Source: Streptomyces soli
Lineage (GTDB): Bacteria; Actinomycetota; Actinomycetes; Streptomycetales; Streptomycetaceae
NCBI RefSeq assembly: GCF_003999195.1
Contig: NZ_RJVR01000057.1
Coordinates: 1-64,000 of the forward strand
Direction: 5' to 3'
Length of the DNA: 64,000 bases
In this document: positions 3,808-41,146 of the stretch, one piece after another
How positions within the stretch are numbered: position 1 is the stretch's first letter
How the letters are laid out: each line of letters begins with the position of its first letter
Notes under the pieces: generated by a model
What the model saw: only the letters and a program-made list of their open reading frames with translations
Told to the model about the DNA's origin: nothing
The model's database searches: none
Translations under genes and position numbers: made by a program

Positions 3808-3839
3808 GGGGGGCGGCCGCCCGCCGGCGGCCGCCCCCC
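3808..3839. terminator. Bidirectional terminator between aldehyde dehydrogenase and ectD
   Basis: A perfect 10-bp GC stem (3808-3817 with 3830-3839) and 12-nt loop sit between two convergent genes whose stops are at 3803 and 3852. It probably ends transcripts from both sides. Confidence 0.7.
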
Positions 3840-15095: not shown

Positions 15096-15235
15096 TGTGT
15101 TGCTCCTTCGGTGGTTGTGCGGTGCGGCTGGTGCCGCCTGCGCCGGGGTTCGTTGCCACGTGCGGCGTCGTTGCGCCTGCGGCGGGCTTCCTCCCGCCCG
15201 CCCGCCTGTTCGCCGGCCCGTCGGCTTCTGGCCTC

Positions 15236-16999
15236 TCATGGGTGGTTGTTCGCGGTCGGCGGCCGCGGCCCTTCGGGTGGATCTTCTGCCAGAACAGGAC
15301 CCCCACCGAGCCGCTGCCGCGCGACAAGTTGAGAGGGTGCGCCGGGTTGCCCCCGGAAGCGACGAGAACACACGGGGGGCAACACAACGCCCCCGGTGAC
15401 GTTCAAGCGCTGAGGAGGCTGCCCGGTGGCGCCCCAGACCCAGGGCACAATCAGGCGCACCCGGCACAGGCCGCCCGGCCCGCTGCGCTCTGCAGTCGAC
15501 CTCGGGCTTTGGGAGAACGTTCCGCCAGGCGGAACCGGCTGGCACAACCCGGCCACGTGCCTCGGGCCGCCGACGCACCCCCGGCAACCCACCGTCGTGG
15601 TGCGAGCCCGTTCCCGGGTGCTGGTGGGTTGGGCCAGCCTCCCCCAAAGCTTCCTTCGGGAGGTGCCCCCACCCCCAGCTAGACGCTGGGAGGTGCCCCC
15701 ATCTCGCTTGCTCGCGTCAGGCGGACGGCCTACCCCCAACCCATCGGCAAGTAGGGGGTCCGCGTCCCCGGACCCGCCACCGTCCCGCGTACCCCAGAGG
15801 ACGAAGACCGGATTGGTCGCCGCAAGCCGGCTGACCTCACCCGGCAGCGGGGCGAGCCGCGAGGACTGCAACAGAACCCCCTCGACGACGAGCCCCGCAC
15901 CGGCAAGAGCCGCCCGGACATCCGCGACGCGGTCAAGCGCGGCCAGCGTCACGACCACGACCCGCCGCACCCGGGCAGCGCACGCAGCCACGATCGCCGG
16001 AAGGTCCGCACCGCCGCCGCCGATGAAAACCGCGTCCGGATCGGGGAGTTGGCCGAGGACGGCAGGGGCGGAGCCGTGCACGGCCTGCACGTCCACGCCG
16101 TGGGCGGCGGCGTTGGCCAAGACCCGGTCGACGCCGTCGGCGGCGCGCTCGACGGCCACCACCGCAGCCCCGAAGCGCGCGCATTCGACGGCCACCGACC
16201 CGGAGCCGGCGCCGATGTCCCAGACGAGGTCGCCCGTGCGGGGGCCGAGCCGGGAAAGCGCCAGCGCCCGGACCTCGTACTTCGTGACCATGGAGTCCCG
16301 GTAGGCAAACGCATCCTCCGGCAGCGCCCAGCCGGCAGGCGAAGGCCGCGGACCGGCGACCGTACGCGGCACCGGCGACAACACCCGCCCCTCATCGAGG
16401 CACAGGACGACGCTGACACCCACCGCCGACCAGTCCCGCGCTGCCGCGTCCGCCGGGGAGAGCCGTTCGACGGACTCCTCGGCCGTGCCGAGCGCCGCCG
16501 CGACGACCAGCGTCCGCTCGATGCCGGTGTCCGCCAGCGCCGCGCCCAGCTCACCCGGCCCGGCCCCCGGGCCGGTCAGCACGGCGGTCTTCGCGTGCGC
16601 ACGGCACACGTTGACCGCCGTGCGCGGGTCGCGGCCGTGCGCGCTGACGACGACCGCGTCGTCCCACGTCAAGCCGAGCCGTGCGAAGGCCACGGCCACC
16701 GACGGTGCCGAGGGCCGTACGTCCAGTGCCGCCGGGCCGAAGCGCTCGGCCAGGGCGCGTACGATCCCGAAGAACCCGGGGTCGCCGGAGGCGAGGACGG
16801 TCGCCGTGCCGCCCTTGGCGAGGTGTTCCTCGATGGCGTCCAGCGCGGGGGCGAGCGGCCCGAGGCCGATCCGCTGGACGCCGGGCGGGAGCGCGGCGGC
16901 GTCCAGGTGGCGCCGGGCGCCGACGACCAGGGTCGCGTCAGCGGGCACCCCCGAAGCCGCGGGCCCAGCAGCCGTACCCGTACCGATGACCGTGATCAC
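15236..16999 (-). CDS. cobL: Precorrin-6Y C5,15-methyltransferase CobL (CbiET) with repeat-derived C-terminal extension
   Basis: Residues 1 to ~405 form a normal CobL: CbiE methyltransferase domain (VITVIGTGTA, ASGDPGFFGIVRAL) and CbiT C15-methylating/decarboxylating domain (VWDIGAGSGSVAVECARFGA). Homologues I know end soon after NPVFVLWGTR. Here the frame stays open for ~180 more codons (about 15784-15239) through a hairpin repeat cluster and non-coding-looking DNA, giving a low-complexity tail. The GTG at 16999 overlaps the cbiD stop. The core is surely functional; the tail may be an accident of lost stop codons. Confidence 0.9.
   Translation of the reverse strand: MITVIGTGTAAGPAASGVPADATLVVGARRHLDAAALPPGVQRIGLGPLAPALDAIEEHLAKGGTATVLASGDPGFFGIVRALAERFGPAALDVRPSAPSVAVAFARLGLTWDDAVVVSAHGRDPRTAVNVCRAHAKTAVLTGPGAGPGELGAALADTGIERTLVVAAALGTAEESVERLSPADAAARDWSAVGVSVVLCLDEGRVLSPVPRTVAGPRPSPAGWALPEDAFAYRDSMVTKYEVRALALSRLGPRTGDLVWDIGAGSGSVAVECARFGAAVVAVERAADGVDRVLANAAAHGVDVQAVHGSAPAVLGQLPDPDAVFIGGGGADLPAIVAACAARVRRVVVVTLAALDRVADVRAALAGAGLVVEGVLLQSSRLAPLPGEVSRLAATNPVFVLWGTRDGGGSGDADPLLADGLGVGRPPDASKRDGGTSQRLAGGGGTSRRKLWGRLAQPTSTRERARTTTVGCRGCVGGPRHVAGLCQPVPPGGTFSQSPRSTAERSGPGGLCRVRLIVPWVWGATGQPPQRLNVTGGVVLPPVCSRRFRGQPGAPSQLVARQRLGGGPVLAEDPPEGPRPPTANNHP
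15628..15752. repeat. GC-rich hairpin repeat cluster A (in cobL tail)
   Basis: Several small inverted repeats of the type CCCCCAGC-n-GCTGGG and CTCCCGAAGG-like arms occur here. An 18-nt block, 15639-15656, occurs in reverse complement at 23968-23985 (cluster C). It lies within the extended cobL frame. Confidence 0.8.
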
Positions 17000-18165
17000 G
17001 CCAGCAGCCCCCCGCCCCACCGCGCGACGAGCTCGCGCCCCGTGAAGTCGACCATCGCCGCCTCCGCCGCGACCCGGCCCTCCGTGAAGCGCTCCATGAC
17101 GTCCGCGACACGCCGGCACAGTTCGACCCCGGCCGGGGCGAGCAGCCCCGCCGTGTCCCACAACTCGTACGCGTGGCGGGCGGTGTTGGCGGCGGCCACC
17201 TCCGCCGCGAGCTCCGCGTCGCCGCCCACCGCGCGCGTGATGTCGGCGAGGACGGCCGTGTTGACCTTGGAGCGCGTGTAGTGCGTCATCAGCACACCCG
17301 CCGCCAGTTTCGTCAGCTTGCCGGCCATCCCGACGAAGATCACCCGCCCGACGCCCAGTTCCACCGCCCGGCGCAGCGCCGCGCCCGTGAAGTCGCCGAC
17401 CTCGATGAAGCACACCGACGGCAGCTGCGGCAGCAGCTCCATCGCGCCCTTCTCCGTGCGGCCGCCGGTGCACAGCACGACCGCCTGCTCGCCCTGCGCT
17501 GCGGCGACGGCCACGGCCTGTTCGACGCTCGCCCGCCAGGAGGCGGTCGAGAAGGGCCGGACGATGCCGGTGGTCCCGAGGATCGAAATGCCGCCCAGGA
17601 TGCCCAGCTTGCCGTTCGTCGTCTTTTTGGCCCGCTGCTCGCCGTCGGGGACGCTGATCGTGACGTCGACCCCGCGCACCGCCAGGTCCACGACCTCGCC
17701 GACCGCCTGCGTGATCATCGCGCGCGGTGTCGGGTTGATCGCGGGCCCGCCGACCTCGAGGCCCAGCCCCGGCTTGGTCACCACCCCGACGCCAAGGCCG
17801 CCGTGCAGCGCGATCCCTGGCGTGTCCCGCCAGCTGACCGTCGCCGTGAGGTGCGCGCCGTGCGTCACGTCCGGGTCGTCGCCGGCGTCTTTCACCACGA
17901 CCGCCTCCGTACGCCCCGGCCGCAGTTCCACCGACCGCTCCACTGCAAAGGTCACCCGTCGCCCGGACGGCAGCCCGATCTCCACCCACGGCTTCGCGGT
18001 CCCCGTCACCAGGTGCAGGGCGGCCGCCCGCGCTGCGGCTGACGCGCAGGTGCCGGTCGTCCAGCCGGTACGCAGCGCCTTGGGACGCTCCTTGGCGGTG
18101 CGCGGCAGATCGGGCTCGCGCAGCTCGGGTCCTTCGTAAGGCTCTTCGTAGGGGGTGTCGCTCAA
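16996..18165 (-). CDS. cbiD: Cobalt-precorrin-5B C1-methyltransferase CbiD
   Basis: A 389-aa SAM-dependent C1-methyltransferase of the 'anaerobic' corrin route. The motifs LRTGWTTGTCASAAARAA, GVVTKPGLGLEVGGPAINPTPR and LGILGGISILGTTGIV are diagnostic. It starts at TTG 18165, backed by AAGGAGGG about 7 nt upstream. Its stop overlaps the cobL GTG. With CbiG in the same operon it replaces the CobF/CobG steps of the oxygen-dependent route. Confidence 0.94.
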   Translation of the reverse strand: MSDTPYEEPYEGPELREPDLPRTAKERPKALRTGWTTGTCASAAARAAALHLVTGTAKPWVEIGLPSGRRVTFAVERSVELRPGRTEAVVVKDAGDDPDVTHGAHLTATVSWRDTPGIALHGGLGVGVVTKPGLGLEVGGPAINPTPRAMITQAVGEVVDLAVRGVDVTISVPDGEQRAKKTTNGKLGILGGISILGTTGIVRPFSTASWRASVEQAVAVAAAQGEQAVVLCTGGRTEKGAMELLPQLPSVCFIEVGDFTGAALRRAVELGVGRVIFVGMAGKLTKLAAGVLMTHYTRSKVNTAVLADITRAVGGDAELAAEVAAANTARHAYELWDTAGLLAPAGVELCRRVADVMERFTEGRVAAEAAMVDFTGRELVARWGGGLLA

Positions 18166-18212
18166 GGCCGTCCCTCCTTCCGGGGTCTCGTCAGTCTGTA
18201 CGGGCAGGTCGG

Positions 18213-19028
18213 CTAGCCGCGCGATTCACGCAGCTCGCGGCGCGCCACCGGGTCGGCCCGGCGATAGCCGTGGAAGTGGCCGGGGTGGTAGAGGTGCGAG
18301 CGTGTGCCGGTCGCCGACAGGGCCGGGCCGACCAGGAACAGGGTGTGCTTCCAGAGCTTGTGCTCCTTGACCGTGGCCTCCAGCGTCGCGATCGTGCAGC
18401 GCAGCACCAGTTCCTCCGGCCAGGTCGCCTGGTAGGCGATCACCACCGGCGTGTCCTCCGGATAGCCGCCCTCCAGCAACTCGCCGACCAGCTGCCCGGA
18501 CCGGGCCGCCGACAGGAACAGCGCCATCGTCGTGCCGTGCCGCGCGAACTCCCGTACCTCTTCGCCCGGCGGCATCGGCGTCTTGCCGCCGCCCAGTCGG
18601 GTCAGGATCACGGACTGCGCGACCTCGGGGATCGTCAGCTCGCGCTGCGCGATGGCCGCGACCGCCGAGAAGGACGACACGCCCGGCACGATCTCGGTCT
18701 CGAGCCCCAGTTCCACGCAGCGGTCGAGCTGCTCCTGCGTACCGCCCCACAGGGCCGGGTCGCCGGAGTGGATCCGCGCGACCCGCAGGCCGTCGCGCTG
18801 CGCCCGCTCATAGACGGCGACCACGTCCTCCAGCGACATCGTCGCCGAGTCCAGGATCTCCGCACCCTCGCGGGCGTGCTCCAGCACCTCGGCCTGCACC
18901 AGGCTCGCCGCCCAGATCACGACGTCCGCGTCGGCGATGGCCTTCGCGGCCCGGAAGGTCAGCAGATCGGCCGCGCCGGGACCGGCCCCGACGAAGGTCA
19001 CTTTCCCATTGGTCCCGGTGACCGTCAC
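18213..19028 (-). CDS. cobM: Precorrin-4 C11-methyltransferase CobM
   Basis: A 271-aa SAM methyltransferase adding the C-11 methyl. It begins after VTVTGTNG with KVTFVGAGPGAADLLT and has RIHSGDPALWGGTQEQ, PGVSSF and LTRLGGGKTPMP. The GTG at 19028 has GGAGG 7 nt upstream and overlaps the cobI stop (GTGA). A 47-bp gap with no recognised feature separates its stop from the cbiD start. Confidence 0.95.
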   Translation of the reverse strand: MTVTGTNGKVTFVGAGPGAADLLTFRAAKAIADADVVIWAASLVQAEVLEHAREGAEILDSATMSLEDVVAVYERAQRDGLRVARIHSGDPALWGGTQEQLDRCVELGLETEIVPGVSSFSAVAAIAQRELTIPEVAQSVILTRLGGGKTPMPPGEEVREFARHGTTMALFLSAARSGQLVGELLEGGYPEDTPVVIAYQATWPEELVLRCTIATLEATVKEHKLWKHTLFLVGPALSATGTRSHLYHPGHFHGYRRADPVARRELRESRG

Positions 19029-19756
19029 AGCTTTCCTCCACGGGTCTCCCGCGACGCGGGCGCGATCAATGTCGACAAATATGGCAACGGACCGTCCAGC
19101 AGCTCGCTCGCGGGCCGTATCGACTCCTCCGGCAGCCCCAGCGCAGACCCCCACACCGCGCCCTCGGTCCGGCCCGTCTCCTTCAACGCCGCCGCCACCT
19201 CCTCCGCCAGCCGCCCGAACTTGTACGCCACGACCGTCCCCGGCCCCTCCAGCGCCTCCCTCAGCACCGCCGATCCCGCCGTCACCGGCACCAGCGTCAA
19301 CGGCTCGGTCCCCTCGGTCAGTACGGCCCCGCTGCGCGCCGCCAGGTCCTGCATCGCCGTGATGCCCGGCACCGTCTCGACGGTGAGCCCGTCGACCAGC
19401 CCGTCGACCGTCTGCGCGAGGTAGGTGAACGTCGAGTACACGTTCGGGTCCCCGATCGTCGCGAACGCCACCGTCCCGTGCGCCCGCAGCAACTCAGCGA
19501 CCCGCCCGCCCGCCGCGTCCCACGCCGCCTCGCGCCGCGCGCGGTCACTCCGCTCGTTGAGCGCGAACACCACCCGTACGACCTTCTCCTGCGCCACGTA
19601 ATGCAGCACCGTCGCCTCCGCCCGGCCCCGCTCGCCCGTGTCCATCACCGGGACCACCACGACGTCGGCGGCCCGCAGCGCGTTCACGCCCTTCACGGTC
19701 ACCAGTTCCGGGTCGCCGGGTCCGACCCCGACCCCGATCAGCCGGTGTGTCGTCAT
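19025..19756 (-). CDS. cobI: Precorrin-2 C20-methyltransferase CobI
   Basis: A 243-aa SAM methyltransferase that methylates C-20 of (cobalt-)precorrin-2. MTTHRLIGVGVGPGDPELVT is the typical N-terminus; FATIGDPNVYSTFTYL and VETVPGITAMQDLAA follow. The ATG at 19756 has GAGGAG 7 nt upstream, so I reject the longer open frame. It overlaps cobM by 4 nt and follows cobB by 19 bp. Confidence 0.95.
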   Translation of the reverse strand: MTTHRLIGVGVGPGDPELVTVKGVNALRAADVVVVPVMDTGERGRAEATVLHYVAQEKVVRVVFALNERSDRARREAAWDAAGGRVAELLRAHGTVAFATIGDPNVYSTFTYLAQTVDGLVDGLTVETVPGITAMQDLAARSGAVLTEGTEPLTLVPVTAGSAVLREALEGPGTVVAYKFGRLAEEVAAALKETGRTEGAVWGSALGLPEESIRPASELLDGPLPYLSTLIAPASRETRGGKL

Positions 19757-19775
19757 GCTGCTGCTCCTCGTCCGT

Positions 19776-21149
19776 TCATCGTGTGGCGCCTTCCGCGAAC
19801 CGCCGTGCGAGCGACGGCTCCGCCGCCCAGTGCACGTGCAGGTACGAGGCGTGCACCCTGCCTGCCTTGACGAAGCCCTCAACGCGCCGCTCGGGCTTCG
19901 TCAGCCCCCACGCCGGCGCCGCGCCCGCCCCCGGTTCGATCACGGTCCGGTGGAACTCGTGCCCCCGCACGCGCGTCCCCGCCACCGCCAGCGCGCTGTC
20001 CGACACCGCCACCGCTTCCCGGTAGCCCAGCGTCAGCCGCTCCGACATGCGGGCGGTCGCGTCCAGCACGCCGCACATCGGCAGGTCGTCCAGCTCCCTC
20101 GCCAGGTACAGCAGCCCGGCGCACTCGGCGGCCACGGGCCCGTCGAACGCCGCCACGGCCTTGCGCAGCGGCTCGTTGGCCGACAACTCGGGCGCGTACA
20201 CCTCCGGGAAGCCGCCACCGATGACGATGCCCGCAGTGCGCTCCGGCAGGCTCTCGTCACGGAGGGGGTCGAAGGTCACGACCTCCGCCCCGGCGGCCGC
20301 CAGCAGCTCCGCATGCTCGGCGTACGAGAACGTGAACGCGGCCCCGCCGGCCACGGCGATCACCGGCGAATGGGCCCGTCCGCCGTCCGGGGAGCCGTCC
20401 GCGACCACCTCCGCCGCGTCCCACGGCGCAGCCGCAAGCGGGGGAGCGCTGCGCGCCAGCGCCAGCAGCCCCTCCAGGTCGCACCCGGCGCGTACCCGTG
20501 CCGCCAGCGCGCGCACGGACTCCAGGGCCTCCGGCCGCCGCTCGGCGACGGGCACCAGCCCGAGGTGGCGCGAGGGCGCGCCCAGCGCACCGTCGCGCCG
20601 CAGGGCGCCGAGCACCGGCACCCCGGACTCGTCCAGGGCGGCCCGCAGCAAGGCCTCGTGGCGGTCGGAGCCGACCTTGTTGAGGATCACGCCCGCGACC
20701 CGCACCTCGGGGTCCCAGGAGGCGAAGCCGTGCACCAGGGCGGCCACCGACCGCGACTGCGACGACGCGTCGACGACCAGCACGACCGGCGCCCGCAGCC
20801 GCTTCGCCACATGCGCGGTCGACGCCAGCTCGCCCTGCCCCGAGGCGCCGTCGTACAGCCCCATGACGCCCTCGACCACCGCGAGATCGGCACCGGCCGC
20901 ACCATGCAGGAAGAGCGGAGCGACCAGCTCCTCCCCGCACATGTACGCGTCGAGATTGCGGCCGACGCGCCCCGTGGCCAGCGCGTGGTACCCCGGGTCG
21001 ATGTAGTCGGGCCCGACCTTGTGCGGGGACACGGCGAGTCCGGCCTCCGCGAAGGCGGCCATCAGCCCGGTGGCGACGGTCGTCTTGCCGCTGCCGGAGG
21101 CCGGCGCGGCGATCACAAGCCGGGGGACGTTGGACGAGGACGAGGTCAC
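19776..21149 (-). CDS. cobB: Cobyrinate a,c-diamide synthase CobB (CbiA)
   Basis: A 457-aa amidotransferase that amidates the a and c side chains with glutamine and ATP. The dethiobiotin-synthase-like P-loop (LVIAAPASGSGKTTVATGLM) is N-terminal, and a class I glutaminase domain with nucleophile Cys (VAAECAGLLYLA) is C-terminal. It starts at GTG 21149, overlapping the cobO stop; an adjacent GTG one codon earlier is equally possible. Confidence 0.95.
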   Translation of the reverse strand: MTSSSSNVPRLVIAAPASGSGKTTVATGLMAAFAEAGLAVSPHKVGPDYIDPGYHALATGRVGRNLDAYMCGEELVAPLFLHGAAGADLAVVEGVMGLYDGASGQGELASTAHVAKRLRAPVVLVVDASSQSRSVAALVHGFASWDPEVRVAGVILNKVGSDRHEALLRAALDESGVPVLGALRRDGALGAPSRHLGLVPVAERRPEALESVRALAARVRAGCDLEGLLALARSAPPLAAAPWDAAEVVADGSPDGGRAHSPVIAVAGGAAFTFSYAEHAELLAAAGAEVVTFDPLRDESLPERTAGIVIGGGFPEVYAPELSANEPLRKAVAAFDGPVAAECAGLLYLARELDDLPMCGVLDATARMSERLTLGYREAVAVSDSALAVAGTRVRGHEFHRTVIEPGAGAAPAWGLTKPERRVEGFVKAGRVHASYLHVHWAAEPSLARRFAEGATR

Positions 21150-21742
21150 CACTCGATGCCCTTCTGGCCCTTCTGGCCGACATCCATCGGGTGCTTGACC
21201 TTGCCCATCTCGGTCACCAGATCGGCGGCCACCACCAGCTTCTCGGGCGCGTTGCGGCCGGTGATGACGACGTGCTGCGTCCCGGGCCGGTCGCGCAGCA
21301 CCGCGACGACCTCGTCGGTGTCCACCCAGCCCCAGTGCATCGGATAGGCGAACTCGTCGAGCACGTAAAGCCCGTACGTCTCCGCCGCCAGGTCCCGCTT
21401 GACCTGCTCCCAGCCCTCCCGGGCGGCTTCCTCGCTGGTCTCCAGGTCCCGCTGCACCCAGGACCAGCCCTCGCCCATCTTGTGCCAGGCGACGGTCCCG
21501 CCCTCGCCGGAGTCGCCGAGCACGCGCAGCGCCCGCTCCTCGCCGACCTTCCACTTCGCCGACTTCACGAACTGGAACACCCCGATCGGCCAGCCCTGAT
21601 TCCACGCCCGCAGCGCCAGCCCGAAGGCCGCCGTCGACTTGCCCTTCCCGATGCCCGTGTGCACCACGACCAGCGGCCGGTTGCGGCGCTGCCGCGTCGT
21701 CAGCCCGTCCTCCGGCACGACGCTCGGCTTTCCCTGCGGCAT
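21146..21742 (-). CDS. cobO: Cob(I)yrinic acid a,c-diamide adenosyltransferase CobO
   Basis: A 198-aa CobA/CobO-type corrinoid adenosyltransferase with P-loop HTGIGKGKSTAAFGLALRA and the VLDEFAYPMHWGW block. It transfers 5'-deoxyadenosine from ATP to Co(I). Its ATG shares one base with the TAA stop of the upstream chelatase gene (TAATG), and its stop overlaps cobB. Confidence 0.95.
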   Translation of the reverse strand: MPQGKPSVVPEDGLTTRQRRNRPLVVVHTGIGKGKSTAAFGLALRAWNQGWPIGVFQFVKSAKWKVGEERALRVLGDSGEGGTVAWHKMGEGWSWVQRDLETSEEAAREGWEQVKRDLAAETYGLYVLDEFAYPMHWGWVDTDEVVAVLRDRPGTQHVVITGRNAPEKLVVAADLVTEMGKVKHPMDVGQKGQKGIEW

Positions 21743-23844
21743 TACGCGGCCCTCCTGCGTACGTCCCGTACGAGCGCGGACACGGTGTCCGCGCGCAATT
21801 CCTCCAGCGTCACGGCGGCGCCGCTCAGATCCCGCGCCAGCGCACCCGCCAGCCCGAGCCGTACGGGCCCCGACTCACAGTCCACGACCACCGACGCCAC
21901 GCCCTCGGCCGCCAGCAGCCGCGCCGCCCGCGACGCGAGCGCCACCGGCCCGCCGGTCTCCCGCCCCCGCCCTTCTGCGGAAGCTCCCCCGGCCTCCGGC
22001 TGGTGGGGGCACTCTCCCTCGCTTCGCTGGGGGCGCCCCCACCCAGCCGCCAGGCTGGGGGAGGACCCTGCACCTTTTTCTTGGCCACCCGTCGCCCGGC
22101 CGTCGGTCACCACGACCAGCAGCGGCCGCCGCGACGCGTCCCGCAGCCGCTCCACGCGCAACACCTCGCGGGCCTTCAGAAGCCCGGCCGCCAGCGGCGT
22201 CCTGCCGCCGGTCGGCAGCATGCCCAGGCGCGCCGCGCCCGCCTCCACCGACGACGTCGGCGGCAGCGCCAACTCGGCCCCGCTGCCCCGGAAGGTGATC
22301 AGCCCGATCTTGTCCCGTCGCTGGTAGGCGTCCAGCAGCAGTGACAGCACCGCGCCCTTGACCGCGCTCATCCGCTGCCGCGCCGCCATCGACCCGGACG
22401 CGTCCACCACGAACAGGACGAGGTTGCCCTCGCGGCCCTCCCGTACGGCCTGCCGCAAGTCGTCCTTACGTATCACCAGCCCGGCACCACTACGCCCCCG
22501 CGCCCGCTGGTGCGGGGCCGCCGCCTGCACGGTCGCCGCCAAGTGCAGCTTGCTCAGGGCGCCCTGGGGCCGCCGGGCCCCCGTCGTCCGCCCGTGCGCC
22601 GTCCGCGCCCTTGAGCGGCGTCCTGCGGCGCCCTCGCCGAGCCCCGGCACGCTCAGCGCCTTCGCCTTGAACGGCTCCCCGGCGGGGGCGGTCTTCTGCT
22701 CGCCGCCGGTAGCAGGGGCGGTGCCTTGGGCCGGCTCAGTCCCTTCGCCGTCGCCAGGTCCGTCCTCCGGCGGCTGCCCGCCGCCGTCATCCGGGCCATC
22801 GGGGTCCGGGTCGGGGTCCGGGTCCTCGTCCCCGCCCCGGTTCTGCTCCAGCGTCTCGTCGAGCTTCTCCTCGTCCAGGCCGGGCGCGTCAAAGGGGTTG
22901 CGCCTGCGCCGGTGCGGCAACGCCAGCAGCGCCGCCTGCCGTACGTCCTCCGCCAGCACCTCCGTGCGGCCCGCCCACGCCGCCAGCGCCGTCGCCGTAC
23001 GGGCCATCACGATGTCCGCCCGCATCCCGTCGACCTCGAACGCCGCGCACGTCGCCGCGATCTGCCGCAACGGCCCGTCCCCCAGCCGCACCTCCGGCAA
23101 CAACGCACGGGCCCCAGCGATCCGCTTCCGCAGCGCGCTCTCCTCATCTGCCCAACGCCCCGCGAACCCCGCCGGATCCTCGTCGTACGCCAGCCTCCGC
23201 CGCACCACCTCGACCCGCTCGTCCGTCTCCCGCGACGCCGCCACCTCGACCGTCAGCCCGAACCGGTCCAGCAACTGCGGCCGCAGCTCCCCCTCCTCCG
23301 GGTTCATCGTCCCCACCAGCAGGAACCGCGCCGCGTGCCGCACGGACACGCCCTCCCGCTCCACGTACGACGCCCCCATGGCCGCCGCGTCCAGCAACAG
23401 GTCCACCAGGTGGTCGTGGAGCAGATTCACCTCGTCCACATACAGCACCCCCCGGTGCGCCGCCGCGAGCAGGCCCGGCTCGAAAGACTTCACGCCCTCC
23501 GCCAGCGCCCGCTCAATATCCAGCGCCCCCACCAGCCGGTCCTCCGACGCCCCGACCGGCAGTTCCACCATCCGCGCGGCCCGCGCCGTCCCGTCCGTCG
23601 ACTTATGCGGCCCATCCGGGCACGCCGGATCCGGCGCTCCCGGATCACAACTGAACCGGCACCCCGGCACGACCTTCACCTCCGGCATGAGCGCCGACAG
23701 GGCGCGTACGGCGGTGCTTTTGGCAGTGCCCTTCTCGCCACGTACCAGCACGCCGCCCACGGCTGGGGAGACCGCGTTGAGCAGCAACGCCAGCCGCAGA
23801 TCATCCATCCCGACGATCGCGCTAAAGGGGTAAGGGGTGCTCAT
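21742..23844 (-). CDS. Magnesium/cobalt chelatase I-D type subunit (AAA+ and VWA) with repeat insertion
   Basis: A 700-aa fusion of a ChlI/BchI AAA+ ATPase ([56 protein letters not shown]), an acidic Pro/Asp/Gly linker (~340-420) and a von Willebrand A domain with MIDAS VDASGSM. It is the likely motor partner of CobN in ATP-driven cobalt insertion. Residues about 590-632, right after TDGRATGG, are a low-complexity insert encoded by a hairpin repeat and absent from relatives I know. The ATG at 23844 has AAGGAG 6 nt upstream. Confidence 0.92.
21980..22066. repeat. GC-rich hairpin repeat cluster B, inside the chelatase VWA coding region
   Basis: This cluster contains a 27-bp block (22036-22062) repeated exactly, in reverse complement, at 41071-41097. 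It is in frame with the chelatase gene and adds about 40 codons without a stop. Confidence 0.85.
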
Positions 23845-23899
23845 GCGGCGCTCCTTGGGGTTGTGGGCAGGCGTTCCGCTGTGGCGAGCGAAGCGATAT

Positions 23900-24098
23900 G
23901 GGGGTACCTCCCAGACGGAGTCCGAGGGTGGGGGTCCCCCAGCCTTGGGCGGGGGGACCCCCACCCAAAGGAAGCTTTGGGGGAGGTGGGCACAACCCAC
24001 CTGCACCCGGCAACGGCGAGTACCTCGACGGTGGCGGGCCGGGGGTCCAGGGGGCCGGCCCCCTGGTTTCGGGAAGGGGCGGGGTAGGGGAGCGAGAC
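23900..24098. repeat. GC-rich hairpin repeat cluster C between cobN and chelatase I/D gene
   Basis: The 274-bp gap between cobN and the I/D gene is mostly hairpins: CCCCCAGCC/GGGGG arms near 23925-23990 and a strong GGGGGCCGGCCCCC-type palindrome near 24050-24064. It shares 18 nt with cluster A (23968-23985) and 16 nt with cluster G (24058-24073). Confidence 0.85.
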
Positions 24099-24118
24099 GC
24101 CCGGGCCCGAGCCGCCGC

Positions 24119-27100
24119 TCACGCGTCGCCCTCCAGATCGCCCTCGAGCTGGAGGTACGTCTCGCGGAGACGGTCAAGCGTCGCAGACTCCGGCTCCGCC
24201 CAAAGCCCCCGCTCCGCCGCCTCCAACAGCCGCTCGCTGATCCCGCGCAGCGCCCAGGGGTTGGACTTCTCCATGAACTCCCGGTTCTCCGGGGAGAAGA
24301 CGTACTCGCTCGCCAGCCGTTCGTACATCCAGTCGTCCACGACACCCGCCGTCGCGTCGTACCCGAACAGATAATCAACCGTCGCGGCCATCTCGAACGC
24401 ACCCTTGTAGCCGTGCCGCCGCATCGCCGCCATCCACCTCGGGTTGACGACCCGCGCGCGGAAGACCCGGTGCGTTTCCTCACCCAGGGTCCGGGTCTTG
24501 ACCTGGTCGGTCATGGCGCTGTCGCCGACGTACGCCTCCGGGGAGACGCCCGCCAGATGGCGCACCATGGCGACCATGCCGCCGTGGTACTGGAAGTAGT
24601 CATCCGCGTCGACCAGATCGTGCTCACGAGTGTCGACGTTCTTCGCCGCGACCTGGATCCGCCTGAACGCCTGCTCCATGTCACCGCGCGCCGCCCGCCC
24701 GTCGAGCCCGCGCCCGTACGCGTAGCCGCCCCACACCGCGTACACCTCGGCGAGGTCCGCGTCGCTGCGCCAGTTGCGTGCGTCGATGAGAGGCAGCAGC
24801 CCCGCGCCGTAAGCGCCCGGTTTGGAGCCGAAGATACGAGCCGTCGCCCTTCGCCGGTCGCCGTGGTGGGCGGTGTCCTCGTCGGCGTGGGCGCGTACGA
24901 AGTTCTGGTCGGCCGGCTCGTCGAGCTCGGCGACGGCACGTACGGCGTCGTCGATCAAGGCCACTACATGGGGGAAGGCGTCCCGGAAGAACCCGGAAAT
25001 CCGCACGGTCACGTCAATACGCGGACGGCCCAACTCCTCGAGCCCCACCACCTCGAAGCCGGTCACCCGCCGGGACGCGTCGTCCCACACGGGCCGGCAG
25101 CCGAGCAGGGCAAGGATCTCGGCGATGTCGTCGCCCTGCGTACGCATGCAGGACGTGCCCCAGACCGTCAGGCCCACGGACTTCGGGTACGCGCCGGTGT
25201 CGGCCAGGTGCCGGGCCAGCAGCGAGTCGGCGAGGGCCGTGCCGACGTCCCAGGCCAGCCGCGACGGAATGGCCTTGGGGTCGACGGAGTAGAAATTGCG
25301 GCCGGTCGGGAGGACGTTGACCAGGCCGCGCGTGGGCGAGCCGGACGGGCCGGCCGGGACGTAGCCGCCGCGCAGGGCGCGCAGGATGTTGTCGATCTCA
25401 TCCGTCGTACGGGCCAGGCGGGGCACGACCTCCTCCGCCGCGAACTCCAGCACCCTTACGGCGTCCGGCACTTCGTGCCCGAGGACCTCCGCCACGACGC
25501 TCTTGGCCGCGCCGGTCGCCCAGCCGTCGGCCTCCATGGCCTCCGCCAGCCGCCGGGCCAGCGTCTCCAGCAGGTCCACGGCGTCGGAGGCCGTACGGGA
25601 AGGCCCTTCCGCCAGCGCGGTCAACGAGGCCGGCACCTCCACCCGGGCGCCCGGCTCGGCCAGCAGCGACTTCTCCTCCAGGCCGAACCACGCCGCCAGC
25701 GCCGCCCGCAGACCCGGCAGGGCGCCGCCGACGCCGCCCCACACCTGGGACGAACGCAGCACCGCCAGCACCAGGTTGACCTGGGCCTCGCCGACCGGGC
25801 CGCCGCCGAGGATGTGGAGGCCGTCCCGGATCTGGACGTCCTTGATCTCGCAGAGCCAGCCGTCGACGTGCATGACGAACTCGTCGAAGTCGTCGTCGTC
25901 CGGCTGGTCGTCCACATGCAGGTCGTGGTGGAGCTCTGCGGCCCGCACCAGCGTCCAGATCTGGCTGCGTACGGCCGGGGCCTTCGTCGGATCGAGGTCG
26001 CTGACCATCGCGTACTCGTCCAGCAGCTGTTCCAGCTTCGCCAGGTCGCCGTACGAGTCGGCCCGCGCCATCGGCGGCACCAGGTGGTCCACGACCGTGG
26101 CGTGGCCGCGACGCTTGGCCTGGGTGCCCTCGCCCGGGTCGTTGACAATGAAGGGGTAGACCAGCGGCAGTGCGCCCATCACCGCGTCGGGCGCGCAACC
26201 GGCCGACAGGCCGAGGCCCTTGCCCGGCAGCCACTCCATGGTGCCGTGCTTGCCCATGTGCACGATCGCGTCGGCGCCGAACGAGAGCTCCAGCCACCGG
26301 TAGGCCGCCATGTAGTGGTGCGACGGCGGCATATCGGGGTCGTGGTAGATCGCGATCGGGTTCTCGCCGAACCCGCGCGGCGGCTGGATCATGATGACGA
26401 TGTTGCCGAACTGCAGCGACGCCAGCACGATGTCCTCGCCGTCCACGTAGAGCGTGCCCGGCGGCTCTCCCCAGTGCCGCAGCATGCCCTCGCGCAGTTG
26501 GTCGTCCAGCCCCGCGAACCACCGCTGGTAGTCGGCGAGCGGCACCCGAGCGGGGGCGGAGGCCAACTGCTCCTCCGTCAGCCACTCCACGTCATGGCCA
26601 CCGGCAGCGATAAGTCGATGAATCAGCTCATCCCCATGGTCCGGGTAGCCGTCAACGCCGTATCCCGCTCCCCGTAGCGCGTCCAGTAGTCGCACCGCCG
26701 ACGCGGGCGTGTCCAGGCCGACCGCGTTGCCGACCCGCGAGTGCTTGGTGGGGTAGGCGGTGAAGACCACGGCCAGCCGCTTCTCCGCGTTCGGCTTGTG
26801 CTTGAGCGCGGCGTGCCGCACCGCGATCCCGGCCACCCGCGCCGCCCGCTCGGGATCGGCCACGTACACCGGCACGTCGCCCTCGCCCTGCTCCTTGAAG
26901 GAGAAGGGTACGGTGATCAGCCGTCCGTCGAACTCCGGGATCGCCACCTGCATCGCCGCGTCCATCGGCGACAGCGCCGCGTCCGACGCGTCCCACGCCG
27001 CCCGTGACGACGTCAGACACAGCCCCTGCAGCACCGGCACGTCCAGCTCCGCCAGCGCCCCGATGTCCCACGCCTCGTCGTCCCCGCCGGCGCTCGCGTC

Positions 27101-27769
27101 GCTCGCCCGGGTCCCGCCGGCCGCCAGCACCGTCGCGACGATCGCGTCCGCCCGCTGCAGGAGCTCGTACAGCCCGGCGTCCGCGCCGCGCAGCGAACCG
27201 CAGTACACCGGCAGCGCGTTGGCGCCCTTCGCCTCGATCGCCTCACACAGCGTGTCGACAAAGCCCGTGTTCCCCGACAGCTCGTGCGCCCGGTAGAAGA
27301 GCACGCCGACCGTCGGGCGGCCCTTCTCGTACGCGTACGAGCCGTGCGTCCCGTAGTCCGGCATCGGGGCCGGCGGCTCGAAGCCCTCGCCCGTCAGCAG
27401 GACCGTGTCCGACAGGAACCGCGCCAGCTCCCGCAGGTTCCCCGGCCCGCCCTCGACCAGATAGCGCAGCGCCTCCGCCACCACGCCCGCCGGCACCGAC
27501 GACTCCGCCATCAACTCCGCGTCCGGCACCGCCTCACCGCTCAGCAGCACCGTCGGAATCCCGGCGGCCCGCAGCGCGCCCAGCCCGTCCTCCCAGGCCC
27601 GCTTGCCGCCCAGGAGCCGTACGACGGCGATGTCGGCGCCCGCCAGCAGCGCGGGCAGGTCCGCCGCCGCGTCCACCCGCGTCGGGTTGCCGATCCGGTA
27701 CGGCGCGCCGGACGCCCGCGCGGCCAGCAGATCGGTGTCGGCGGTGGACAGCAGAAGTACGGTGCTCAC
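24119..27769 (-). CDS. cobN: Cobaltochelatase large subunit CobN
   Basis: A 1216-aa CobN, the tetrapyrrole-binding large subunit of the ATP-dependent cobaltochelatase. Family blocks include [55 protein letters not shown] and [18 protein letters not shown]. Its length is normal. The GTG at 27769 overlaps the cobQ stop (GTGA). It inserts cobalt into hydrogenobyrinate a,c-diamide in the late-insertion route, yet CbiX for early insertion is in the same operon. Confidence 0.96.
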
Positions 27770-29268
27770 GGTGCCCCCGGGGCTACGAACGGGAGGCCGG
27801 CGGGTGCGCCGTCCTCGATGAGCCGCATCAGCGCGGCGGTGTCTGCGTGCTCCTCGATCAGATCGCCGAGGCGGTCCAACTGCTCCTCGCGCAGCGCGGC
27901 GAACGCCGTGTCCGGCGCCGGTACGAACCGCCGCCCGGCGGCTTCCGCGACCCGGCGCAGAAAGGCGCGCCGGAAGCCGTCGCTCTCCAGTGAACCGTGC
28001 CAGTGCGTACCCCACACGGCGCCGGCCCGGCAGCCGTCCAGGAAGGCCTCGTCGCCGCCCTCGCGCAGCTCGGCGACCCCGTGGTGGATCTCGTAACCCT
28101 CCACCGGCTCCCCGTACGCCTTGCCGACCGGCCGCGCCAGCGTCTTCTCCGCCGCGAACCGGACCCGCACCGGCAGCAGCCCGAGCCCCTTCACGGTCCC
28201 GGCCCGCGACTCGACCTTGTCCTCGATCGACTCGCCCAGCACCTGGAACCCGCCGCAGATCCCCAGCACCGGCCGCCCCTCCGCCGCCCGCCGCTTGATG
28301 GCGTCGGCCAGCCCGTGCTCCCGCAGCCACGCCAGGGCTCTGACGGTGCCGCGCGTGCCGGGCACCACCACCAGGTCGGCGTCCGCCAGTTCCTCGGGTC
28401 GGTCGGCAAAGCGCACGACCACACCCGGCTCGGCCGCCAGCGCGTCCACATCCGTGAAGTTCGACATCAGCGGCACGGCGGCGACGGCCACGCGCAGCAC
28501 GTCCTCCCCGTACGGCGGCCCGGCCGCCCTGCGCTCCCGGGCGATCTCCAGCCCGTCCTCCTGGTCGATCCCCAGCCCGTGCCGGTGCGGCAACACCCCG
28601 TAGAACGGCCGCCCGGTCAGCCCGCGCATCATCTCCAGCCCCGGCTCCAGCAGCGACACATCGCCCCGGAACTTGTTCACGATGTACCCGGCCACCAGGG
28701 CTTGGTCCTCCGCGCTCAGCAGCGCCGTCGTCCCGAAGAACGACGCGAACACCCCGCCCCTGTCGATATCCCCGACCACCACCACCGGCAACCGTGCCGC
28801 CCGCGCCAGCCCCATGTTCACGATGTCCCCACGCCGCAGATTGATCTCCGCCGGGCTCCCCGCCCCCTCGCAGATCACCGCGTCATACTGCCCACGCAAT
28901 TCCTCCAAGCACCCCACGACAGTGTCCAGCAATTGCGCCCGGCTCCCGTCGTGATACCCCCGCGCACTCATCTCGCCCACCGGCCTCCCCAGCACCACCA
29001 CCTGGCTCGTCCGATCCCCGCCCGGCTTCAACAGCACCGGATTCATCAACGCCGTCGGCTCGATCCGCGCCGCCTGCGCCTGCATCGCCTGGGCCCGGCC
29101 GATCTCCGCGCCCTCGCGCGTCACGTACGAATTCAGCGACATGTTCTGCGCCTTGAACGGCGCAACGCGCACGCCCTGCCGGACGAGCCACCGGCAGATG
29201 CCCGCTGTCACTACGCTCTTCCCGGCATCGGACGTGGTCCCGGCCACCAACAGCGCCCCGCCGCTCAT
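27766..29268 (-). CDS. cobQ: Cobyric acid synthase CobQ (CbiP)
   Basis: A 500-aa glutamine amidotransferase that amidates side chains b, d, e and g of adenosylcobyrinate diamide. It has the N-terminal P-loop [29 protein letters not shown] and [12 protein letters not shown], and a C-terminal triad-type glutaminase domain with [10 protein letters not shown]. The ATG at 29268 overlaps the end of the extended cobD frame (ATGA) and lies next to repeat cluster D. The Shine-Dalgarno is weak. Confidence 0.95.
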
Positions 29269-30398
29269 GATTCAGCCCGTCCGGCGTTTGAGGACCTGGG
29301 GGCACTCCCCCAGCCTTCGGCCGGTGGGGACACTCCCCCAGCCTTCGGCCGGTGGGGGCACCCCCGGCGAAGCCAGGGGGAGGACCCCCACCCAAACGAA
29401 GGTTTGGGGGAGAGCCCGGTTTCGGTAAGGGGCGGGGTGGTGGGGGCGCCTCCCAGAAGGTCTGGGGGAGACAGAACTGCCCACGCCAGCCGACCCCCGA
29501 CCGCAACGGCCAGCGCCAGCAAACTCACCCGCCCCGAAAGCCGAACCGCCCGCTCGATATCCGCGACCTCCACCGCCCGGTTGCCACCCCCGAGAACCGG
29601 CCGGTGCTCAACCCGCCCCCCGTAAGCCAGCGTCCCGCCCAGCCGCACACCCAGCGCCCCCGCGAACGAAGCCTCAACCGGCCCCGCATTAGGACTGGGA
29701 TGGGCCGCCCCATCCATCCGCCACACCCGCCACGCCCCGCGCGGATCCGCCCCCGCCAGCACCACAAGGACCGCCGTCAGCCGCGAACCGGGCCACCCCA
29801 CAACGTCGTCGAGCCGCGCCGACGCCCAACCGAAGCGGCGCAGCCGGGCCGACCGGTGCCCGACCATCGCGTCGAGCGTGTTGACGGCCCGGAAGCCGAC
29901 GAGCCCCGGTACGCCACCCACCGCACCCCACACGAGCGCGCCGACCACCGCGTCCGAGGTGTTCTCGGCGACGGACTCGACGACGGCCCGCGCGATCTGC
30001 TGCCCGTCCAGGGCCTGCGGGTCGCGTCCGCACAGGTTCGGCAGCCGTTCCCGCGCTGCCGCCAGATCACCGGCCTCAAGCGCGGCCCCCACCGCCCGAG
30101 CCTCGCGCCCCAGCGAAGTCCCGCCGAGCGCGGCCCAGGTGGCTGCGGCCGTCAGCCCCACGGACGCGGCAGCGGAAGAACGTACGACCCGGGAGGCCAC
30201 CGCGGCGCCGGCCACCGCTCCGCCCACGCACAGGGCCGTGTAGAGCGCACCCCGGCCCCGGTGGTCACGCCACAGGCGCCGTTCGAGAGATCCCGCGATG
30301 CGACCGAAGGCGGCGACGGGATGACCGCGCCGGGGGTCGCCGAATGCGCGGTCGGCGACAAAGCCGAGCACAGCGCCGTACGTGTGGGCACGCGGCAT
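29265..30398 (-). CDS. cobD: Adenosylcobinamide-phosphate synthase CobD (CbiB) with repeat-derived C-terminal tail
   Basis: Residues 1 to ~316 are a normal CobD/CbiB membrane enzyme that joins aminopropanol (phosphate) to adenosylcobyric acid ([54 protein letters not shown], several hydrophobic segments). The last ~60 residues (Pro, Gly, Trp-rich) are translated from hairpin repeat cluster D and are not family-like. It is the first gene of the operon; GAGGA 10 nt before the ATG sits right after the riboswitch. Confidence 0.92.
29272..29295. repeat. 24-bp dispersed motif, copy 1
   Basis: A 24-bp motif (starting TCAGCCCGTCCGGCGTTTGA) is found exactly here and at 34662-34685. It lies at the cobD-cobQ junction, flanking cluster D. 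Confidence 0.85.
29300..29485. repeat. GC-rich hairpin repeat cluster D with 28-bp tandem duplication
   Basis: Two tandem near-identical 28-bp units begin at 29303 and 29331 (CACTCCCCCAGCCTTCGGCC...). They are followed by the CCCCCACCCAAA...TTTGGGGG hairpin also seen in cluster C. The whole cluster is read through as the cobD C-terminal tail. Confidence 0.85.
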
Positions 30399-30415: not shown

Positions 30416-30630
30416 CAGGGTCCGCGCCCTGGTTCGACGTGACCGGCGGTGAGAGTCTCCTGGCTCCCGGATCGGCACACCTCCGGCCTTCCAGCCCGAC
30501 GTACGAGCCGTGACCACGTGCGGAGGTGCACTCCCCGGTGACAGTGGCGGGACCGCGCCGGATTCTCACCGGACTTCCTCTCCTGCCGCCGCTTGGCCCC
30601 GGAAGTCCACCACGCGCCGCGAATGCCCGT
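30416..30630 (-). promoter_or_regulatory. Cobalamin riboswitch upstream of cobD
   Basis: Read on the minus strand, 30600 to 30416 shows the cobalamin aptamer core: GGAAGTCCGGTG, AATCCGGCGCGG, TCCCGCCACTGTCACC and the B12 box AGCCAGGAGACT (plus 30454-30465). A hairpin CAGGG-CGCGGA-CCCTG (30416-30431) follows, then GAGGA, the ribosome binding site of cobD. No T-tract terminator is seen, so adenosylcobalamin probably represses by hiding the start region. The 5' limit is approximate. Confidence 0.95.
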
Positions 30631-41067: not shown

Positions 41068-41146
41068 ACGTCCCCCAGCCTGGCGGCTGGGTGGGGGTCC
41101 TCCCCCCGGACGGAGTCTGGGGGGGAGTGCCCCCACCGCCTTGCCA
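41068..41146. repeat. GC-rich hairpin repeat cluster F
   Basis: Two hairpins (TCCCCCAGCCTGGCGGCTGG-type and GACGGAGTCTGGGGG-type) lie in the gap between two convergent genes. Its 27-nt block, 41071-41097, is an exact reverse complement of 22036-22062 in cluster B. It may act as a terminator here. Confidence 0.85.

Follow-up and report, generated by a model that had tools for sequence, protein, structure and literature searches.

A REP-like hairpin repeat family, probably mobile, among the cobalamin genes of Streptomyces soli and across Streptomycetaceae

Four clusters of short hairpin repeats (A to D) lie among the cobalamin (cob) genes of Streptomyces soli, in the first 64,000 nucleotides of contig NZ_RJVR01000057.1 (assembly GCF_003999195.1), a stretch referred to here as the window. 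The closest described systems are the repetitive extragenic palindromic (REP) sequences of the GTAG superfamily, their doublets (REP doublets forming hairpins, REPINs) and the REP-associated tyrosine transposases (RAYTs). Like the family described here, these repeats are presented in passages of PMC3733652, PMC2817692 and PMC3116915 as short palindromes of high copy number and patchy distribution that occur as singles, dimers and arrays and are in some cases intragenic. According to a passage of PMC3733652, the GTAG- and CGTC-tagged superfamilies span several phyla, with some copies inside genes and some clusters that code for 43 to 82 residues, and the CGTC repeats apparently have no dedicated transposase; RAYT genes, as part of PMC2817692 has it, are always flanked by two REPs.

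The present family departs from this description: GTAG, CTAC, CGTC or GACG stands within 6 nt of the unit end at only 1 of 31 single units, Y1 transposase genes are mostly not flanked by units, and the host group, Streptomycetaceae, goes unmentioned in those REP passages. Being REP-like in behaviour but lacking both the tag and the RAYT flanks, it is not classed here as a GTAG REP. The terms "Streptomyces" and "Actinobac" are absent from the texts of PMC3733652, PMC2817692 and PMC8266576, and palindromes in some Actinomycetota are mentioned in a passage on RepRanger (PMC12306157). No published description of the hairpin family was found at the level of titles and the openings of abstracts, which is weak evidence of absence, with the subscription literature mostly outside that search.

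Insertion into coding genes that adds residues is a trait shared with the CGTC palindromes and the Rickettsia palindromic elements (described in part of PMC3733652), from which the family differs in the absence of the tag and in its GC-rich host; no sequence relation was seen, and none was systematically tested. Hairpin units in both orientations joined by repeated linkers resemble bacterial interspersed mosaic elements (BIMEs), although the units themselves are, in our reading, different. The linker core, about 102 bp long and with inverted ends, recalls miniature inverted-repeat transposable elements (MITEs), but flanking target duplication is absent at 28 of the 31 single units (the other three have 2-3 nt), and no parent transposon was found, no systematic search for one having been made. 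Mitochondrial GC clusters and double-hairpin elements, too, are short, mobile, GC-rich hairpins that encode no protein, but they belong to an organelle rather than a bacterium.

Comparison with related genomes indicates that clusters A to D very probably represent insertions, specific to this lineage, of a small REP-like hairpin family that is non-autonomous, genome-wide in S. soli and patchy in Streptomycetaceae. The mobility of the family is well supported, since many copies, a covarying hairpin, occupied sites set against empty or shorter ones, singles as well as arrays, and in-frame intragenic copies all lead to this reading. An earlier note, made from the window sequence, had listed a non-autonomous mobile element among its suggestions, and that suggestion is strengthened by the longer versus short or empty sites, by units lying within genes and within another repeat, and by the patchy copy number.

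Cluster sites compared with relatives

Sequence alignments, together with a detector of 162 over-represented 11-mers trained with the window and loci L008, L189 and L207 excluded, confirm that four clusters with shared blocks lie where the earlier note had placed them. The detector reports A at 15575-15742, B at 21999-22067, C at 23927-23986, D at 29297-29415 and a further cluster near 41 kb (Table 1), and gives no cluster in the reversed window; it carries a bias in that many of its training loci were retrieved with window-derived probes. At a laxer setting it adds three two-word spots (14342, 15296 and 36849). Retrained only on a sample comprising at most the first 20 kb of each of 40 contigs, it recovers C, D and the 41-kb cluster when words must occur three times; raising the threshold to four leaves C, and at five no cluster remains. 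The cluster near 41 kb is the one extra cluster found where the note had counted two, F and G, in the remaining 50 kb; G, which came without coordinates, could be matched to none. Trained 11-mers took the place of a strict perfect-stem scan, which had given a weak excess, 20 clusters in the sample against 9, 13 and 17 in three Markov simulations. Beyond the operon, a long G-first perfect-stem hairpin at 3808-3838 is invisible to the 11-mer detector.

The shared blocks are substantial. A (15638-15660, plus strand) and C (23964-23986, minus strand), which run in opposite orientation, agree at 22 of 23 positions inside a 69-nt inverted pair of 83% identity, and the two clusters have a 19-nt block in common. 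An arm block of 35 nt is 91% identical between C and D, and 69% in B.

In the nearest relative found, G029 (93% identical in the chelatase gene), the alignment is interrupted at all four clusters. The window has 674 bp against 71 bp at A, 262 against 95 bp at C and 167 against 57 bp at D, and B is a net insert of 135 nt. The region of B (about residues 590-632, 43-45 codons) has no counterpart in any of the 34 other genomes of the genus, and at the site of C almost no sequence separates the genes in G020 and G007. Outside the cob genes, two cluster-bearing stretches measure 453 against 38 bp and 692 against 28 bp in the comparison with G029, although these stretches also contain other sequence. 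Matches shorter than 150 bp were dropped from the comparison; no usable orthologous site in G029 was found for cluster F, one flank of L235 was not found, and one more junction alignment was uninformative.

A different repeat module, CAGCCCGTCCGGCGTTTGAGGA, is present in G029 at sites A, C and D (L169), sometimes adjoined by CCCCGCCCCTTCCCGAAACC or its complement. It also occurs in the window at 29270-29296 and in several near-identical copies elsewhere in G029.

The repeat unit and its copies within genes and another repeat

The family is built from a hairpin some 31 nt long, with the approximate sequence TGGGGGCACCTCCC-arm-loop-arm-TGGGGGA, also written TGGGGG(CACC/TCC)(T)CCC-arm-loop-arm-TGGGGGA, which occurs singly and in mosaic arrays, in both orientations. 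Seventeen of the 31 single units measure exactly 31 nt (range 29-33, under a search pattern that permits only 26-35). The inner arms covary: in 15 of 26 distinct inner types all four arm pairs form, wobble included, whereas shuffling yields 3.8 such types on average and none of 5000 shuffles reaches 15. This full-unit pattern replaced a looser one, under which pairing (21 of 180) did not rise above that of shuffled arms (mean 14.2, maximum 24). Arrays are connected by the ~102-bp linker, for which there are 17 distinct matches in the examined loci of this genome, the window copy included and some partial; its inverted ends are seen in the linker core and were not shown at single units. The most frequent 12-mers in the contig sample are codon-type repeats unrelated to the hairpin family. 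Duplicates by flank or by sequence were removed before the linker, coding-frame, nested-repeat, single-unit and covariation counts.

Several units lie inside genes. Three are found in a pullulanase-type gene (1865 aa), with net gains of 30, 24 and 24 nt relative to G029, and one, with a net gain of 27 nt, in a nearby alpha-glucosidase-like frame, named from our reading of its own sequence rather than by family search; all four are in frame (units of the starch-degradation-type genes are located at L232 10239-15836 and 1473-3257). Counting B with these four, the inserts in apparently useful genes are multiples of three in five of five cases. In the predicted structure of the chelatase, residues 588-629 have pLDDT below 50 and would form a loop leading from the strand that precedes the TDG motif to the next helix, and the VWA elements after the insert reach about 80, in a model that is modest as a whole (mean pLDDT 65.1, pTM 0.47). 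A crude coding-frame test, restricted to clusters with flanks of at least 150 bases, assigned 2 of 57 clusters to in-frame positions within genes and classed 36 as having no coding flank, and is insensitive enough to overlook known cases such as B.

Units also lie in transposon genes. One tnpA copy is frameshifted by a unit (L217, ~2522-2557), and a unit-free copy 95% identical to it exists. A tnpA remnant in a second species, G029 (L245, ~2117-2150), has a unit at the equal position in surroundings that otherwise do not match, apart from one 186-bp match. An annotated IS605-type tnpB coding sequence of a Streptomyces chartreusis plasmid (NZ_CP108842.1; L265, 1501-1532) reads through its unit in frame, although this tnpB looks split upstream.

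Finally, some units sit inside another repeat, at a constant position within it: three loci of G115 show this for GGGGCGCG...GAACTGCGCGA, and three places in G029 for the near-identical GGGGCGCG...GAACGGAGCGA. Unit-free copies of the host repeat number seven, spread over five examined loci, one of them in G115. The nested-unit loci are L252, L253, L262 and L263, and L258-L260; G013 shows a similar setting in the opposite orientation.

Distribution and gene context

A genome-wide search of the kind proposed in the earlier note places the family across the whole S. soli genome: three exact probes gave 9, 59 and 98 matches (reversed probes, 0), which merge into 133 clusters on 86 of 412 contigs. 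The core pattern is present in 12 of 35 genomes of the genus. Among Streptomycetaceae more widely, 140 of 249 genomes, from 10 of 17 genera, contain the pattern TCCCCCAGCCTNCGGCNGG, with 1406 matches in all, 0-92 per genome, against 4 matches of the reversed control. An exact 32-nt unit had no match in viral contigs, and only 4 of 72,556 plasmid records carry the unit, all of them from Streptomyces.

Copy number correlates with the presence of a Y1 transposase. Genomes positive for Y1_Tnp (n = 81, fragments included) have a mean of 11.7 matches against 2.7 in the 168 negative genomes (one-sided p = 4e-10), and the direction is the same within each of the four genera examined (g1, p = 0.0003; g3, 0.03; g9, 0.003; g14, 1.5e-5), although the association is not significant in g3 and g9 when scored as at least 10 matches.

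Family search identified on the minus strand of the window cobJ (with a CbiG-like part that scores below its model's cut-off), cobL, cbiD, cobM, cobI, cobB, cobO, a chlID-type chelatase gene, cobN, cobQ and cbiB. This content fits one minus-strand operon and so agrees with the single cobalamin operon within which the earlier note had set the clusters, with the corrections that B is intragenic and that the cobL and cbiB frames stay open through A and D. The cbiB frame continues through D as a C-terminal tail (377 aa), and the length of this tail varies among relatives. In cobB, at 20367-20399, several relatives have about 100-250 additional bases that are absent from the window.

Table 1. Hairpin features and associated genes in the window
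Feature	Position	Strand	Remarks
Extra stretch A, separating cobL from the next cob gene	15110-15783		5 bp at this site in G020; hairpins ~15628-15760
Linker between hairpin arrays, ~102 bp	15538-15638	+	ends GCTGGCxCAACCC ... GGGTTGGGCCAGC
cobL (CbiE/CbiT) frame	15236-16999	-	open across the A hairpins as far as 15236
chlID-type cobaltochelatase subunit (TIGR02442)	21742-23844	-	VWA domain carries insertion B
Insertion B within the chlID-type cobaltochelatase gene	21967-22084		in frame; net gain 129-135 nt
Extra stretch C, between cobN and chlID	23857-24118		hairpins ~23880-23986
Extra stretch D, cbiB/cobQ junction	29296-29484		alignment restarts at 29463 (G029) or 29485 (G020)
Single-unit-like copy inside D, 29 nt	29441-29469	+	
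Cobalamin riboswitch	30453-30580	-	RF00174, 69 bits; 5' end of the operon
Additional family cluster outside the operon	41071-41138		11-mer detector

Routes of spread and rival explanations

The units may be copied in the form of single-stranded hairpins that insert at gene junctions; arrays would then arise there as further insertions nest into existing ones. Insertions that break genes would be lost, and the intragenic copies that survive would then be those in frame, in tolerant loops or tails. Of the engines that could drive this, a Y1 (HUH, IS200/IS605-type) transposase acting in trans is the most likely, a tentative assignment suggested by the copy-number correlation. With slightly less confidence still, the family may represent a third class of bacterial REP-like palindrome, one with neither GTAG nor CGTC tag that is mobilised in trans by an ordinary IS200/IS605 Y1 transposase, not by a domesticated RAYT, and repeatedly adds in-frame peptides to enzymes such as pullulanase and cobaltochelatase.

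Several observations weigh against insertion or against this engine. The other module at A, C and D in G029 means that those are not clean empty sites, and some of the differences could be losses in G029, although the absence of B from all relatives argues against loss in its case. Transposition itself was not observed, insertion being deduced from comparison of sequences. At the junctions of unit insertions, about 2-6 nt or more of the sequence present in the relative has been replaced, a pattern that is unexpected for IS200/IS605 insertion and is only partly explained by divergence. The Y1 correlation, drawn with no control transposase and no tree, does not separate Y1 from general mobile-element load or from relatedness. 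Moreover, 26 of 29 Y1 loci have no adjoining cluster (one has a stray two-word match almost 2 kb away), so that the RAYT arrangement, always REP-flanked, is not seen here; a unit lies inside the gene in two of the remaining loci and a cluster about 430 bp away in one (flanks of mostly ~1-2 kb, shorter at contig ends, were examined with a detector trained on the S. soli genome). Lastly, G013 has 47 matches and no Y1 match.

Spread without a transposase is an alternative that we consider possible but doubtful. DNA breaks, or template switching between short homologies, would capture hairpin copies, and slippage and gene conversion would enlarge the arrays. The small target loss and mostly absent target duplication suit such a process, as does a copy-rich genome without a Y1 match (G013); the unit's identical point within another repeat at several loci is explicable by copying of the whole composite, and the tnpA host target looks, in our reading, like the unit's own hairpin tip. 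However, the narrow unit length is better suited to an enzyme with defined ends, and the within-genus Y1 link likewise fits an enzyme better.

Improbable in our estimate is the proposal that the hairpins are selected RNA elements of the cob operon, stabilising or splitting its mRNA or setting gene ratios. RNA folding on the operon strand is very stable (A, -70.1; B, -78.6; C, -59.6; D, -92.2 kcal/mol, with z-scores of -2.0, -3.4, -4.6 and -4.3, respectively), three of the four clusters stand at gene junctions, and roles in mRNA stabilisation and termination are hypothesised for REPs in a passage of PMC3733652. Yet the hairpins are absent from these sites in the nearest relative and in most others examined, and the family is genome-wide, with B lying within a coding region.

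Intrinsic transcription terminators are a very unlikely account. The GC stems are strong and there are U-tailed candidates in stretch A (15394-15375, operon strand) and in B (22056-22070, opposite strand), but U-tailed sites number 4 in 18 kb against 3.6 in shuffles, and the clusters stand upstream of further genes of the operon, with single units within genes. Terminators were dropped as a candidate, and so were Rfam RNAs: above the gathering threshold, the window and six loci yielded only the cobalamin riboswitch and a tRNA, and no family for the hairpins.

A mobile element that prefers cobalamin genes, also raised in the earlier note, is the least credible of the alternatives and was dropped. 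With the 11-mer detector, 4 clusters in 14 kb of the cob region stand against 9 in the 488,749 bases sampled (~0.26 per 14 kb), a contrast that is post hoc and inflated by training; words trained on the sample, biased in the reverse direction, give 2 in the operon and 27 in the sample. With the exact probes, the cob region has 3 clusters per 14 kb, contig C379 is denser with 4 in 9 kb, and C187 has 3, and the scan statistic is not exceptional: among 2000 uniform simulations some 14-kb interval holds at least 3 clusters in 88% and at least 4 in 13%. Clusters of any kind are found in 3 of 20 cob loci of the genus (G010, G003 and G014) and in 3 of 80 named cob loci, one of which (L064) is probably G010 itself. 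The copy-rich genomes G008, G013 and G025 (50, 46 and 86 core-pattern matches genome-wide) have none in their 16-kb cob stretches, which for G008 and G025 cover part of the operon only and in which a detector trained on S. soli (G000) could miss diverged units. The preference for this operon that the note had suggested finds no backing; the four cob clusters would be insertion scars in one lineage, with no evidence for targeting or for a selected role.

If the family is indeed mobile in the way proposed, REP-type mobile palindromes would exist in a large antibiotic-producing family without the usual tag and transposase arrangement, and the mechanism by which such repeats move would become testable in culturable laboratory hosts. 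The repeats would also add peptides to enzymes in frame and alter operon junctions from one sister species to another, which would matter for annotation, and hairpins in Streptomyces-type operons that are read as regulation may instead be scars.

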